Assembly: GCA_016932595.1 (NCBI GenBank)
Contig: JAFGCP010000309.1
Coordinates: 1-39,555 of the forward strand
Origin: Deltaproteobacteria bacterium
Lineage (GTDB): Bacteria; Desulfobacterota; WTBG01; CAIYCZ01; CAIRTM01
Direction: 5' to 3'
Length of the DNA: 39,555 nucleotides
Position numbers and translations under genes: made by a program. A model generated the notes under the pieces. It was not told where the DNA came from. It saw only the letters and a program-made list of their open reading frames with translations, and did not search any database. Numbering within the stretch: the first letter of the stretch is position 1; every line of letters begins with the position of its first letter. Positions 12,460 through 30,690 of the stretch are shown here, piece by piece.

Positions 12460-13836
12460 TCAATTGACCAGAAAAGGCCTTAAAACTTCCGAGCAGGACG
12501 ACGCTTTTATTCTCTGCAGAGCCGTTGTTTCAATCTGACGAACGCGCTCGCGTGAAATACCGAATTTTTCACCAATTTCTTCCAGTGTATGCTCTCCGTC
12601 GACGCCAAGCCCAAACCGCATGCGAAGAATTCTTTCGTCCCGGGGGGACAGACATTTGAGCATTTCTTCGGTTTCATGCTCCAGCTGATACTTGAGTACA
12701 TGCTCAATCGGCGACTGCGGCATGGTTGCCGCTATGCATTCATGCAGGTTGCTGCCATCTTCTCCAAAGGGTGTTTCCAGGGAGAGAGGATCACGTGTAA
12801 TCTGAAGAGCAAAATGAACATTGACCGTTTCATTATCGGGACCCACCACAGCGCTTTCTGCGGGCACGCGCTGCTCATCGTTTTTTGTTTCATGCAGCAG
12901 CTTTTTGATTTTATCGTTTATATACACGGGAATTCGGATCGTTGACGACTTGTCTTCTATTGCCCTGATTATGGTCTGGCGTATCCACCAGCTTGCATAG
13001 GTGCTCAGGCGGTTGCCCAGCCGGTAATCAAATTTCTCCACGGCCCTCATAAGCCCTATATTGCCTTCCTGAATCAAATCCGAAAGGGGAAGCCCTCGGG
13101 CTGCATATTTTTTTGCTATACCAACCACAAGGCGAAGATTTGCCCCTACCAGTTCATTTTTCGCTTTTTTTGCAGCTCGGTCGGCCTTCAGATACTGGCG
13201 CAGAAGCGACAGAATATTTTTTCTAGCTTTGTTTATCTTGGCGGGATTTATAAAGGGGTAGAGCTTTTTAACAGCTCCGGATTTGTACGTGCGCAGTAAA
13301 TCAAAATGCATGCACATATCATCCGTCTCAAGTACCGCTACCGCTTTTTCCCTGCAGAGCTTTTTGCTTTTGTAGTAGGTGTGTTTTTCATTTTCAAGGG
13401 TAGCCTCTACCGCCATGACGGTGCGGTGAGCCCTTTGTATTTTTTGCAGCAGATCAAGGAATTTCGTGGTGTTTTTGTCATGCGGCCCCTGTTTTGCTGA
13501 AGCGGGCGTTTTTTTCCAGTCTATAATCGTAGAAAAATTTACAGCCCACTGCCTGATGAGAGAGCGTTTTTTTTTGTCTGCTTCAGCATAAGCAATAGCC
13601 AGATCCATCTCCTTATCGCGCGACACGACAGGCCATGTTTTAATCTCATTGAGGTAGGCAGTTATAACATTTCCATGTGAGCTTTTATCGTGCAAATCCG
13701 AACCCACGGATTCTTCCGGCGCCTCTTTCTCGGTTGCACTGCACTCCTCATTCTCCACACATTCAGTTGCATCCAGCAGCATATCTTCAAAATCTTCGCC
13801 GTGTATAGCAATCTGTTTTGTATTCATAACATACAC
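12460..13836 (-). CDS. Sigma-70 family RNA polymerase sigma factor (group 1/2-like, RpoD/RpoS family) with an insertion between regions 1.2 and 2
   Basis: Region 2 [61 protein letters not shown]; region 4 [16 protein letters not shown]...[20 protein letters not shown]. Confidence 0.92.
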
Positions 13837-16965: not shown

Positions 16966-17688
16966 TCAGAGCGTTTTTTGAGTTTTGCTTTTCAGAAGTT
17001 CAAGGTTTGCGTTGACTTCTTCCTTCAAGGCAATGATTTTTTTTGCGCTCCAGCCGGCAAAGCGGGTCTGCGCCTTCACATAGCCCTCAACCGGCTGCGG
17101 GTTCGGGTCTTCACAGGTGATTTTATAGTATCCCTGGGCTATTTCATAGAGCGGGAAAACACGGCTTTCAACAGCTTTTCTCCCGACCTTCACCGTGTTT
17201 TCAGCCTCGAATCCCCATCCTACCGGGCAGGGGCAGAGGATATGCACAAAGGCTGATCCGGCGCAGTCCCAGGCTTTGCGAATTTTATCCACAAGGTCAA
17301 AGGGATGGCTCGGGCATGCTGTAGCGCTATAGTCGCAACCGCTTGCGCTTGCCACTGCCGGAAGTTTTTTCAGCATAACGGCCGTGTCAACCCTGCCGCC
17401 TGTGCATTCATTGTCGAAACAGATATGAAGAGCGCCCTCTTTTTTAGCAATGCTCAGCAGCGCAGGCTGTGAGCCTGCCGCAATGGCGCCGGAGTTAACA
17501 ATGATGCTTTCCTCCCACGGTATCTGCCATTTGGCCTGCTCTATATTCGCGCCGCTGCCTTCCAGCGCTTTGTAGACCTGACGTACGGCAAGTGCTACGC
17601 CGCAGCCTTTGCAGGCATTGTGACCTTTGGGCCCGAAATGCTCCTTGAAAGGCAGAAACTGTGCTGCATAAAGCGTGTATGTATCCAT
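16966..17688 (-). CDS. 2-oxoacid:ferredoxin oxidoreductase beta-subunit-like protein, short form (240 aa)
   Basis: GHNACKGCGVALAVRQVYKAL...CFDNECTGG...SHPFDLVDKIRKAW...HILCPCPVGWGFE...FPLYEIAQGYYKIT...VEGYVKAQTRF match PorB; GDG segment not seen. Confidence 0.85.
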   Translation of the reverse strand: MDTYTLYAAQFLPFKEHFGPKGHNACKGCGVALAVRQVYKALEGSGANIEQAKWQIPWEESIIVNSGAIAAGSQPALLSIAKKEGALHICFDNECTGGRVDTAVMLKKLPAVASASGCDYSATACPSHPFDLVDKIRKAWDCAGSAFVHILCPCPVGWGFEAENTVKVGRKAVESRVFPLYEIAQGYYKITCEDPNPQPVEGYVKAQTRFAGWSAKKIIALKEEVNANLELLKSKTQKTL

Positions 17689-18005
17689 TATTCAACCTCC
17701 TGCATGCTGACGGCGCCGAACCAGCACTCGCGATGACAGATGCCGCATCCTTTGCACAATTTGATATCAACATCATAAAACCCGTCTTCCTGCCGACTGA
17801 TGGCTGCGTCCGGGCAGTAAATATAGCAGAGTGCGCAACGCACGCACAATGTCTTGTCCCATACAGGGCCAAATTGCGGTTTGGTTCCCGGCGTATAAGG
17901 CTGCGCTTGCCCTGCTTCCAGCAATTGACAGCCCACTTTTTCCTGCTTGAATGTTTTGCTGATCAAAGTTGGGTCTCCTTTGCGATTTTGATTGTAATTA
18001 TGCAA
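17688..18005 (-). CDS. 2x[4Fe-4S] ferredoxin, PorD (delta subunit)-like
   Basis: CVRCALCYIYCPDAAI and CKGCGICHRECWFGAV; PorD-like DGFYDVDIKLCKGCGIC linker. Confidence 0.9.
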   Translation of the reverse strand: MHNYNQNRKGDPTLISKTFKQEKVGCQLLEAGQAQPYTPGTKPQFGPVWDKTLCVRCALCYIYCPDAAISRQEDGFYDVDIKLCKGCGICHRECWFGAVSMQEVE

Positions 18006-26264: not shown

Positions 26265-28556
26265 ATGGCTAGAGAAGATGACAGGCTCCAGCGCCAGATG
26301 CGTGAGGAGCAGAAGCGGCGCAAGCGGGAACAGAGTATTATTTTCATTGCCATACCGCTTGTCATTGCCCTTACGTCGCTGTTGATGTATGTGACCGGTC
26401 GCAGCGGCGAGGCTCTTCTGCCGCAGAATATTCTTGTATTCAGCCTCATCAATCTGAATGCTATTTTGCTGCTGCTGCTGCTTTTTCTTGTCGTGCGCAA
26501 TGTTGTGAAACTTTTTTTCGAGCGCAGAAGGGGCATTTTGGGGTCGAAGCTGCGCACAAAGCTGGTCATAGCTTTTGTGGGCCTGTCACTGGTGCCGACC
26601 ATGCTTCTTTTCTGGGTGTCCATCAGTTTCATAACCAATACGATTGAAAACTGGTTCAGCTTTAAAGTTGAGAATTCTCTGGAAGAGTCCCTCACGGTCG
26701 TTGATGCCTATTACCGGAACTCGTCCTCAAAAGCGCTTCACTACGCCCACCAGATTGCAGGAAGCATCGCAGCAAAAAAAATGCTCGGCGAGCGCGCCTC
26801 GGAGCCCTTATGGACTCTGGTTGCTGAAAAACAGTCCGAGTACGACCTTGGCGTGGTCGAGATATTTTCAGCCAGCGGAGCGCAGCTGGTCAAGGTTGCC
26901 CGTGCCGATGTGCCCGAAAAGGATTTTATAGGATCAGATGCGGCGCTTGTGCAGCTGGCTCTTGAAGGCAAGGAGGTTACCCGCATTCAGCCGGTTAACG
27001 ACGGAGATATCGTTCGGGGCGTTGTCCCGGTGCGGACTGCTGGCGGCAGGCAGGAAATAATCGGCGCCGTTATTGTAAATTTTTATAATCCCAAGAGCCT
27101 TGTCATCAAAATGGACGGGATCAACCGGGCGTATCAGGAATATAAACAGCTTAAAATATCCAAGGGACCCATCAAGGGAATTTATATTATTCTGCTGTCT
27201 GCAGTGACGCTGCTGATTATTTTTTCTGCTACGTGGTTCGGATTTCACCTTTCAAAGGTTATATCCGTTCCCATCAGTTCACTCGCGACTGCGACGCAGC
27301 AGATAGCTCAGGGGAATCTGGATGTTGTGATAGAGCCGTCGTCAGACGACGAAATCGGCAGCCTGATACAGTCGTTCAATAAAATGACCCATGACCTGAA
27401 AGCCAGCACGCAGCAGGTTGAATCAACAACCGGCAACCTGCGGGAAACCATTCGCGAGCTTGAGCACCGGCGGCTGTATATGGAGGTTTTGCTTGATAAT
27501 GTCGCCTCGGTCGTTGTTTCTACCGATCAGGACGGCGTCATAACGGCATTTAATAATTCAGCGGAGCGCATGTTCGCTACCACCTTTGCGCAGGCCGTCA
27601 ACCGCCCGTACGGTGAAGTGTTTGCCCATGAAGAGCTTGCGCCGCTGCGGGATTTTATAAGCGAGGTTCTTTCCTGCCGGCTTCGATCCGTCGAGCAGCA
27701 GATAGCCCTGTCGCTTGCCGACAGGATGGTGTTTTTGTACGTGCGCTCCAATATGTTTTTTGACGCCGACGGCACAAGCATGGGGCTTGTTCTGGTTGCC
27801 GAAGACCTCACCCAGCTGCAGCAGGCGCAGCGGGCATTTGCCTGGAAGGAAGTCGCTCGCAGGATCGCCCATGAGGTGAAGAACCCGCTGACGCCGATCA
27901 AGCTTTCAGCGCAGCGTTTGAAGAAGAAGTTTCAGCATCAGATATCCTCTGACGCGGGGGTGTTTGATGAATGCACAACGGTTATCATCAATCAGGTCGA
28001 TGAACTCAAGACCATGGTCAATGAGTTTTCAAGTTTTGCCCGCATGCCGGCAACCAATCCTCTGCCCAATGAGCTCAATGAAGTAGTTGAAGAGACCCTT
28101 GCATTGTACCGTGAAGCGCATAAAACCATTGTGTTCAGCGCCGTGCGAGAACTGGAGGCAATACGGTTTAATTTTGACCGGGACCAGATCAAGCGGGTGC
28201 TTATCAATCTGCTTGACAATGCGCTGCACTCCATGGAAAATGGCGGGACAGTAACGGTCAAGACAGCATATAATCAGGCCCTTGACGTGGTGATTATCGA
28301 GGTTGCGGACACCGGCAGCGGCATCCCGCCTGCGCTTAAAACCAAAATTTTTGATCCTTATTTTTCAACAAAAAAGGCCGGCACCGGCCTTGGCCTGGCG
28401 ATCGTCAATACGATAGTGTCAGATCACAATGGATTTATTCGCGTGCGCGACAATCATCCCAACGGCGCCTGCTTCATTATTCAGCTGCCGGTGTCACCGG
28501 TTATAAGTTTCAGAAGGGAAACATATAATGAAAAATTTAACAATACTGCTGGTTGA
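26265..28556 (+). CDS. NtrY-like membrane histidine kinase (TM, HAMP, PAS, HisKA, HATPase)
   Basis: MAREDDRLQRQMREEQ; TM segments; HAMP KVISVPISSLATATQQIAQGNLDVVIE; AWKEVARRIAHEVKNPLTPIKLSAQRL; NLLDNALHSM; GTGLGLAIVNTIVSDHNG. Confidence 0.94.
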   Translation: MAREDDRLQRQMREEQKRRKREQSIIFIAIPLVIALTSLLMYVTGRSGEALLPQNILVFSLINLNAILLLLLLFLVVRNVVKLFFERRRGILGSKLRTKLVIAFVGLSLVPTMLLFWVSISFITNTIENWFSFKVENSLEESLTVVDAYYRNSSSKALHYAHQIAGSIAAKKMLGERASEPLWTLVAEKQSEYDLGVVEIFSASGAQLVKVARADVPEKDFIGSDAALVQLALEGKEVTRIQPVNDGDIVRGVVPVRTAGGRQEIIGAVIVNFYNPKSLVIKMDGINRAYQEYKQLKISKGPIKGIYIILLSAVTLLIIFSATWFGFHLSKVISVPISSLATATQQIAQGNLDVVIEPSSDDEIGSLIQSFNKMTHDLKASTQQVESTTGNLRETIRELEHRRLYMEVLLDNVASVVVSTDQDGVITAFNNSAERMFATTFAQAVNRPYGEVFAHEELAPLRDFISEVLSCRLRSVEQQIALSLADRMVFLYVRSNMFFDADGTSMGLVLVAEDLTQLQQAQRAFAWKEVARRIAHEVKNPLTPIKLSAQRLKKKFQHQISSDAGVFDECTTVIINQVDELKTMVNEFSSFARMPATNPLPNELNEVVEETLALYREAHKTIVFSAVRELEAIRFNFDRDQIKRVLINLLDNALHSMENGGTVTVKTAYNQALDVVIIEVADTGSGIPPALKTKIFDPYFSTKKAGTGLGLAIVNTIVSDHNGFIRVRDNHPNGACFIIQLPVSPVISFRRETYNEKFNNTAG

Positions 28557-30690
28557 CGATGAACCTTCCATTGTGAATTCGCTTCGCGGCAGTCTTGAGG
28601 ACGAAGGGCATATACTGCTTACGGCTTCTGACGGCACCCGAGCCCTCGAGATCGTGCAATCTCATCCCGTGGACATTATTTTTCTCGATATCTGGCTTCC
28701 CGGGATGGACGGCATTCAAACCCTCAAAGCTGTCAGGGATTTTGACAGTGCTATAGAAGTTGTTATGATGACCGGTCACGGCACGGTGAACACGGCGGTT
28801 CAGGCCGTCAAGCACGGCGCCTTCGATTTTCTTGAAAAACCTTTTTCGTTTGATGCTGTTGTCGATGTAATAAGAAAAATAAAAGAAAAGCAGCAGGTGT
28901 CCGGTAAAGGCTCAGCAGGATCGAAAGCAGCGGACAGCAGCGGAGAACTGCCTGATTTGTCCGGAGAGAGCGATGCCATTTTAAGGGTTATGGACCAGAT
29001 CAAAAGCGCTGCATCCGGCACAGGGCATATTCTGCTTTTGGGAGAGATCGGGACGGGTAAGGAGCATGCGGCCCAGCTGATCCACAGCGGAGCGGGATTT
29101 AAGAAAAAAACCTTTACGAAGATCAACTGCGCTTTTTTGACGCCTGCTGAGCTCGAGGCAAAACTGTTCGGCGAAAACCAGCCCGGCAGGCAGGGCCTGC
29201 TGACCGGAGGGCTTTCAGGTGTGCTTTTCCTGCAGGCGCTTGATACTGCCCCGCCCGACATGCACAAGCGGCTTGCCGACCAGCTCGGCCAGCTGCTGCA
29301 GACGGGAGAAGGCGGGCTGCGTGTCGTCGCAGCGACGATTAAAACAGCGCCTTACGGAGTTTTGAAAAAGGCCCTTGCCGAGAGCTTTCAGCATACGATA
29401 CTGCTGCCGCCCCTGCGCGAGCGCCGCAGCGATATACCCGTTATGCTCAATTCATTTCTCGCCCGGTTTTGCAGGGAATATGGCTGCAGGGAAAAGCACT
29501 TTGCTGACGAGGCTCTTGAACTTCTGGTAAACTATGATTGGCCGGGCAATGTTAAGGAACTGAAGAACCTCACTGAAAAAATGATTGTTTCGGTGCCGAC
29601 AATAACCATTTCAGCCCAGGATTTGCCCTCGACGATACGCGAAGAGGCCCATCCTGTCTTCTCCCGCTCCTATGAGCACTTCTCAAGCATGGCAGAGGCG
29701 GAAGTTGCCTGGCGCAAAAATTATCTGCTGCATCATTTGCGCAAAAACGATCGCAATCTGTCAAGGACAGCTGCCGCAATACATATCAGGGAGAAGGAGC
29801 TGAAAAAATTAATCAAAGAATACGGCATTGCTTTTGCGAAAGAAAATCCGTCAGGTAAACGCTTTCAGAGAACGCTCAAACGGGCCATGGTGGTGAGCGG
29901 GCAGGGGCTGCATTCGGGAGACAAAACAGGGCTTATTTTAACGCCGCTGCCTCCCGGCAGCGGCATAGTATTCGGCAATATTTCAAGCGAAGATACGATT
30001 CCGGCATCCATTGAGTATGTGGTGTCGACCGACTATTCAACGTGTCTGCAGAATACCAACTCAACAGCCCGCACGATAGAGCATTGCCTCGCAACGCTGC
30101 ATTCCTATCGCATCACAAATCTTATGATCAAGATCAATAATGAAGTGCCCATCATGGACGGTTCTGCCGTTGATTTTTGTAAGATGATTGAGGATGCGGG
30201 TATTGAAGAGCAGGATGCTCCTGCCGATGACATCGTCCTTACCGAAAAATTTGTTATCGGTGACGTCGATGGCTCTAAAAAATACATGATAGTCGAGCCG
30301 GCGGAGCGATTTTCAATTCATTATATGCTGCAGTACCCAAAACCGGTCGGCCGGCAGGAATACACCTTTATCATGAACGACGAGGAATCCTTTAAGAAGG
30401 AGATTGCTCCGGCGCGCACATTCGGCTTTTTACGCGATATTGAGGCGCTTCAGGAGCGGGGGTTGGCAAGCGGCGGCAAGCTCAATAATTTTATTCTTAT
30501 CGACAATGAGAAGATTGTGAACACCGAGCTCCGGTTTCCCGATGAATTTGTGCGGCATAAAATTCTAGACATGATAGGAGACTTTTATTTGCTGGGCCGC
30601 CCCATCCGCGCACGGATAACTGCAAATATGACAGGGCATACCGACAATACAACGATGGTTCGTATGATTCGAGACCGCATGCATCTCTGA
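28528..30690 (+). CDS. Fusion protein: NtrX-like response regulator (receiver, degenerate sigma54 AAA+, Fis HTH) joined to LpxC UDP-3-O-acyl-N-acetylglucosamine deacetylase
   Basis: Receiver LLVDDEP...FLDIWLPGMDG(D54)...TGHG...EKPF; GEIGTGKE (172-179); HTH NLSRTAAAIHIREKELKKLIKEYGI; LpxC from ~residue 445: RTLKRAMVVSGQGLHSG...RTIEHCLA...VPIMDGSAVDF...ARTFGFLRDIEALQERGLASGG...LRFPDEFVRHKILDMIGDFYLLG...TGHTDN. Confidence 0.95.
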   Translation: MKNLTILLVDDEPSIVNSLRGSLEDEGHILLTASDGTRALEIVQSHPVDIIFLDIWLPGMDGIQTLKAVRDFDSAIEVVMMTGHGTVNTAVQAVKHGAFDFLEKPFSFDAVVDVIRKIKEKQQVSGKGSAGSKAADSSGELPDLSGESDAILRVMDQIKSAASGTGHILLLGEIGTGKEHAAQLIHSGAGFKKKTFTKINCAFLTPAELEAKLFGENQPGRQGLLTGGLSGVLFLQALDTAPPDMHKRLADQLGQLLQTGEGGLRVVAATIKTAPYGVLKKALAESFQHTILLPPLRERRSDIPVMLNSFLARFCREYGCREKHFADEALELLVNYDWPGNVKELKNLTEKMIVSVPTITISAQDLPSTIREEAHPVFSRSYEHFSSMAEAEVAWRKNYLLHHLRKNDRNLSRTAAAIHIREKELKKLIKEYGIAFAKENPSGKRFQRTLKRAMVVSGQGLHSGDKTGLILTPLPPGSGIVFGNISSEDTIPASIEYVVSTDYSTCLQNTNSTARTIEHCLATLHSYRITNLMIKINNEVPIMDGSAVDFCKMIEDAGIEEQDAPADDIVLTEKFVIGDVDGSKKYMIVEPAERFSIHYMLQYPKPVGRQEYTFIMNDEESFKKEIAPARTFGFLRDIEALQERGLASGGKLNNFILIDNEKIVNTELRFPDEFVRHKILDMIGDFYLLGRPIRARITANMTGHTDNTTMVRMIRDRMHL

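Follow-up and report, generated by a model that had tools for sequence, protein, structure and literature searches.

The half-site for TPP in an ancient central enzyme lies on PorB. The gene order PorG-PorD-PorA-PorB-NuoE-NuoF matches the Por-Bfu clusters of Schut et al. 2022 (PMC9304861). The definition of Bfu enzymes includes the C-terminal part of BfuB, which holds the B5 Cys and the B3/B4 ferredoxin domain IPR017896 (PMC9304861); Type 4 members (Rub-Bfu) are without BfuA, and keep all BfuB clusters (PMC9304861). Here we analyse a stretch of 39,555 nucleotides of deltaproteobacterial contig JAFGCP010000309.1, hereafter the window, in which four genes form an operon:

17966 to 17688, minus strand: PorD-like 2x[4Fe-4S] ferredoxin, 92 aa, above the cut-off of PorD_KorD TIGR02179
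17688 to 16966, minus strand: short TPP-less PorB-like subunit, 240 aa, one continuous open reading frame
16920 to 16261, minus strand: NuoE/HydC-like [2Fe-2S] subunit, 219 aa, PF01257 with E 2.7e-33
16228 to 14534, minus strand: NuoF/BfuB-like FMN subunit, 564 aa, with PF01257, PF01512 and PF10589

A sequence-only reading had drawn attention to the frame at 16966-17688. Its coordinates hold, but the strand is the minus strand, and the neighbourhood is corrected: the NuoE-like and NuoF-like genes lie downstream, and PorD upstream. The frame is continuous and 240 aa long, and NCBIfam PorB models match it: residues 107-234, the C-terminal part, align with positions 165-298 of the model (E 8.8e-38), and the N-terminal stretch matches more weakly. 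A PDB sequence search with the short PorB leads to the oxalate oxidoreductase beta subunit and to an archaeal PorB.

As read from the sequence, the ATG of the short PorB overlaps the stop codon of PorD (TAATG). The start of PorD is taken to be a TTG with AAAGGAG upstream, on the basis of the sequence and of relatives of 92-93 aa; the mechanical reading frame begins at 18005. All 8 cluster cysteines of PorD are present, but it has lost TGDWRS, a motif conserved in the catalytic PorDs that belong to complete Por operons. An apparent giant frame on PorD at locus L038 proved to be a run of N and was rejected.

The NuoF of the window has an N-terminal thioredoxin-like 2Fe-2S domain, an FMN/NAD domain, an SLBB domain and an N3-type 4Fe-4S domain, and stops at DDYVAYIK, before the C-terminal CPAGVC and 2x[4Fe-4S] domain of BfuB. 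The best PDB matches of the window NuoE are Bfu HydC/NfnC subunits. At every short-PorB locus that was fetched, provided that the contig is long enough, the order is PorD, short PorB, NuoE, NuoF; PorA and PorG are absent from all of these loci, and the window operon holds no BfuA or other third-substrate subunit.

The NuoE also carries a helical N-terminal domain of about 70 aa, which is single in the window and tandem in several relatives; it was noted in the window and at L038, L053, L060 and L062. Some clade-2 NuoFs bear the same domain N-terminally, with a score that none of 500 shuffles reaches. Downstream of the operon, at 12460-13836 on the minus strand, lies a gene for a sigma-70 factor, confirmed at L038 and L043; frames of the same size occupy the same position at L037, L039 and L042.

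The closest described system is Por-Bfu (PMC9304861), with which the operon shares the order PorD...PorB-NuoE-NuoF, homologous PorD, PorB, BfuC and BfuB, and a neighbouring position in the NuoF tree, but from which it differs in having no PorG, no PorA, no PorB TPP site, no BfuB C-terminal ferredoxin domain and no BfuA. The short PorB shares with the PFOR beta subunit (9bt4_C; oxalate oxidoreductase beta, 5c4i) a common fold, the C-terminal half and cluster cysteines 1, 2 and 4; unlike it, the short PorB is without the third cluster cysteine, the GDG block and the NTG loop. The FMN/NAD domain, the N3-type cluster domain and the NuoE 2Fe-2S domain are all those of HydBC/NuoEF modules, yet here the module is tied to PorD and the short PorB rather than to a hydrogenase or NuoG, and its NuoE bears the extra helical domain. 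With Type 4 Bfu enzymes the operon has in common a BfuB/BfuC-like pair and the presence of other subunits instead of BfuA; it differs by the absence of B3-B5, and PorD and the short PorB are extra subunits.

The N-terminal 2Fe-2S, FMN and B1 domains of BfuB are thus found in the window NuoF, and BfuC, the NuoE-like 2Fe-2S subunit, in the operon. Since the NuoF is without clusters B3-B5, the complex cannot, by the definition of PMC9304861, be classified as a Bfu enzyme; and since TPP, PorA and PorG are missing, it cannot be classified as a 2-oxoacid oxidoreductase. The operon fits neither the Por nor the Bfu definition in full. In the open-access literature searched, Bfu papers included, we found no description of a truncated or TPP-less PorB associated with NuoEF.

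The alignment of 36 TPP-less with 55 full-length proteins locates what has been lost. The short PorB has lost three segments: the region of the third cluster cysteine, the block that contains GDG, and the loop YMNTGxQRSSxTPxGA that follows DNE. The first two had been recognised in the sequence-only reading and are borne out by the alignment; the third was missing from its list. The Asp of GDG is present in 55/55 full-length proteins and in none of the 36 others, and so is the Asn of the NTG loop. Nor is a GDG-type motif recovered elsewhere in the short PorB. Pfam TPP_enzyme_C (PF02775) finds no match in it even at E <= 10, and none at E 10 in any of the seven TPP-less proteins tested (7/7), whereas the controls, a full-length PorB of the same genome and a Por-Bfu PorB, match at E 9e-23 and E 3e-22.

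The proximal 4Fe-4S ligand set of PFOR PorB, which counts four cysteines, is incomplete: ligand 3, found in 55/55 full-length proteins, appears in 1/36 TPP-less ones, and that one is a poorly aligned row. Ligands 1, 2 and 4 are retained in 36/36, 34/36 and 36/36 of them, respectively, and 24/36 have an extra cysteine two positions ahead of ligand 4, at a site occupied by Ser, Ala or Val in full-length proteins. As for other candidate ligands, Cys90 (in CFDNE) was rejected as a compensating one because full-length proteins have this cysteine as well (55/55), and Cys95, Cys118 and Cys142 because their conservation is too low. Two short PorBs, L045 (G008) and L046 (G007), have Ser for Cys29 (CAGSG) and offer a natural test of the need for a cluster.

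The AF2 structure, predicted with only the short family as input (pLDDT 82, pTM 0.84), finds as its top Foldseek matches in the PDB the PorB 9bt4, the oxalate oxidoreductase beta subunit 5exe and the PFOR 6cin, with a best E of 1.6e-11. In this model, the short PorB retains the PorB fold; the region of Cys26 and Cys29 has low confidence.

We consider it probable that the short PorB is a catalytically gutted PorB of Por-Bfu descent that now serves as a putative Fe-S relay or docking arm. Its most likely role is that of a non-catalytic subunit, relay or dock, between the clusters of PorD and the NAD(H)/FMN module. A purely structural role, in which the cluster is lost and the protein is a scaffold that holds PorD against NuoE/NuoF, seems to us unlikely. 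A scaffold would agree with the disappearance of the third cysteine from effectively all 36 proteins, with the Ser at Cys29 in two genomes and with the uncertainty of the N-terminal cysteine region in the model; it is harder to reconcile with ligands 1 and 4 remaining invariant, and ligand 2 nearly so, across wide divergence, or with the additional cysteine that two thirds of the proteins place near ligand 4.

The descent of the operon can be read from its relatives. Most of the closest full-length PorBs come from Dehalococcoidia and deltaproteobacteria; these closest relatives are commonly encoded in PorG-PorD-PorA-PorB-NuoE-NuoF operons, and complete operons of this type are also found in the same order (L159, L161) and class (L117). 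In a PorB tree built without two doubtful rows, a branch (96/91) divides all TPP-less forms from the other sequences, the root between TPP-less and full-length forms being set by one distant outgroup row. The NuoFs of the TPP-less loci cluster (95*) beside the Por-Bfu NuoFs. Because its closest full-length relatives belong to Por-Bfu operons, the operon of the window resembles a Por-Bfu stripped of every 2-oxoacid and TPP part.

Two other TPP-less clades (L147/L149/L151, and L156/L157 with L036) encode longer PorB-like proteins (275-313 aa), and in some of these a degenerate remnant, AGESGSFDDG, stands at the position of GDG in full-length proteins. Wherever the contig shows it, their NuoFs retain the C-terminal CPAGVC and two 4Fe-4S domain, which is lost in the clade of the window and in its sister clade; among loci with a short PorB, L059 keeps the ferredoxin domain, and L057 only the motif CPSGVC. 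The losses were stepwise, since the longer TPP-less sister clades still have the NuoF C-terminal domain, which together with the remnants at GDG puts the losses in order. Sister operons additionally encode a BfuA-like Fe-S protein together with a flavoprotein of the geranylgeranyl-reductase (GGR) family, both without counterpart in the clade of the window. Operons with NuoE, NuoF, the BfuA-like protein and the GGR-family flavoprotein were seen at L147, L149, L151, L156, L157, L164, L050 and L053; they occur with or without PorD and the TPP-less PorB, and are possibly an undescribed Bfu type.

The sequences themselves show the loss of the TPP site, conservation, a fixed operon, descent beside Por-Bfu and the loss of the BfuB C-terminal ferredoxin domain. 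The ancestor would have been an operon of Por-Bfu type, in which an NAD(H)/ferredoxin core is coupled to a 2-oxoacid oxidoreductase. From it, PorG and PorA would have disappeared, along with the TPP site of PorB; what remained would be PorD, a PorB scaffold that keeps three of the four cluster cysteines, and the NAD(H)/FMN module of NuoE-NuoF. PorD and the short PorB may then form an Fe-S relay or docking arm for NuoE-NuoF, without 2-oxoacid chemistry, in a complex of PorD, short PorB, NuoE and NuoF that we infer from gene order only. The arm would sit where 2-oxoacid oxidation, or the ferredoxin arm of BfuB, once was, and would carry electrons between FMN/NAD(H) on one side and a low-potential carrier or a partner protein on the other.

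A stronger form of this explanation has the complex perform flavin-based electron bifurcation, with PorD in place of the lost ferredoxin arm of BfuB and the short PorB in place of the substrate-side subunit. The structures closest to the window NuoF are indeed bifurcating BfuBs (NfnB 9n5u, NiFe-Bfu 7t2r), PorD has two 4Fe-4S clusters like the missing BfuB domain, and sister operons hold the BfuA-like subunit and the GGR-family flavoprotein. However, all true bifurcating members have the B3-B5 clusters (PMC9304861) that this NuoF does not have, and the operon is without a third-substrate subunit; we hold bifurcation to be rather improbable, slightly more so than a bare scaffold.

There is also the conjecture that the short PorB is active in a TPP enzyme with PorA and PorG encoded elsewhere in the genome. 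Such genes exist (G000 C357), but they adjoin their own full-length PorB, the TPP domain escapes detection in the short PorB, and the GDG and NTG loops are gone in 36/36 proteins: with the TPP motifs missing, this conjecture was rejected as very improbable.

The short form is present in 13 related genomes of four families. End-to-end orthologues were found in a congener (80% identity), in 7 more genomes of the family, in 2 of the order and in 3 more of the class: the sister taxa, where full-length orthologues would have spoken for recent decay or an assembly error, have short ones instead. A search of the genome contigs with the single protein returned nothing, and an alignment-based scan was required. 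Among 396 genomes of the phylum, the contiguous short form is confined to those families, the other strong matches being partial or spanning about 800-920 bases, like longer PorBs; one further MAG, labelled Myxococcota (L089), came from a collection spanning 85,462 species, and a scan of viral contigs came back empty. TPP-less PorB paralogues are multiple, and the genome of the window itself has a second copy (L036).

Between the window and the congener, the dN/dS of the short PorB is about 0.13 (Nei-Gojobori), and it is 0.06-0.13 for three other pairs by the same method; NuoE gives 0.07 and NuoF 0.09. By these ratios, the short PorB is under purifying selection. The sequence-only reading had left a choice between a repurposed non-TPP subunit and a decayed enzyme: conservation and the fixed operon favour the former, and a dN/dS of about 0.13 speaks against the latter. 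Although its deletions are in-frame relative to known PorBs, a decayed or misassembled gene is the least credible explanation of all and was rejected on the short orthologues kept in related genomes and on these ratios, besides which the operon is intact and there are several paralogues.

An uncultured deltaproteobacterial group has kept, multiplied and selectively protected a TPP-less PorB, apparently put to new use as iron-sulfur wiring within a complex that resembles NADH dehydrogenase. The maintenance of several PorB copies minus their TPP site sets the role of the PFOR chassis in electron wiring apart from its chemistry. The series is readable, from the complete Por-Bfu, through TPP-less PorBs some 300 aa long that are accompanied by a full NuoF, to the short PorB with a trimmed NuoF, and it lets both the assembly of bifurcating complexes from modules and their reduction to modules be tested. 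More tentatively, and as a possibility that we would not yet favour, these operons may encode a separate class of NAD(H)-linked electron-transfer complexes, perhaps bifurcating ones. A PFOR module without TPP, made up of PorD and the short PorB, would there take the place of both the 2-oxoacid catalyst and the ferredoxin arm of BfuB, and in sister clades would feed a flavoprotein of the GGR family, a reductant of carbon-carbon double bonds. For annotation, the presence of PorB-like and PorD genes in such MAGs is no proof of pyruvate oxidation.

Elsewhere in the window, a 720-aa frame at 28528-30690, on the plus strand, links two parts, an NtrC-type response regulator, with a receiver and a sigma-54 AAA domain that matches weakly, and a complete LpxC deacetylase (residues 447-714, PF03331 with E 4e-84): a possible fusion of a two-component regulator with a lipid A enzyme.
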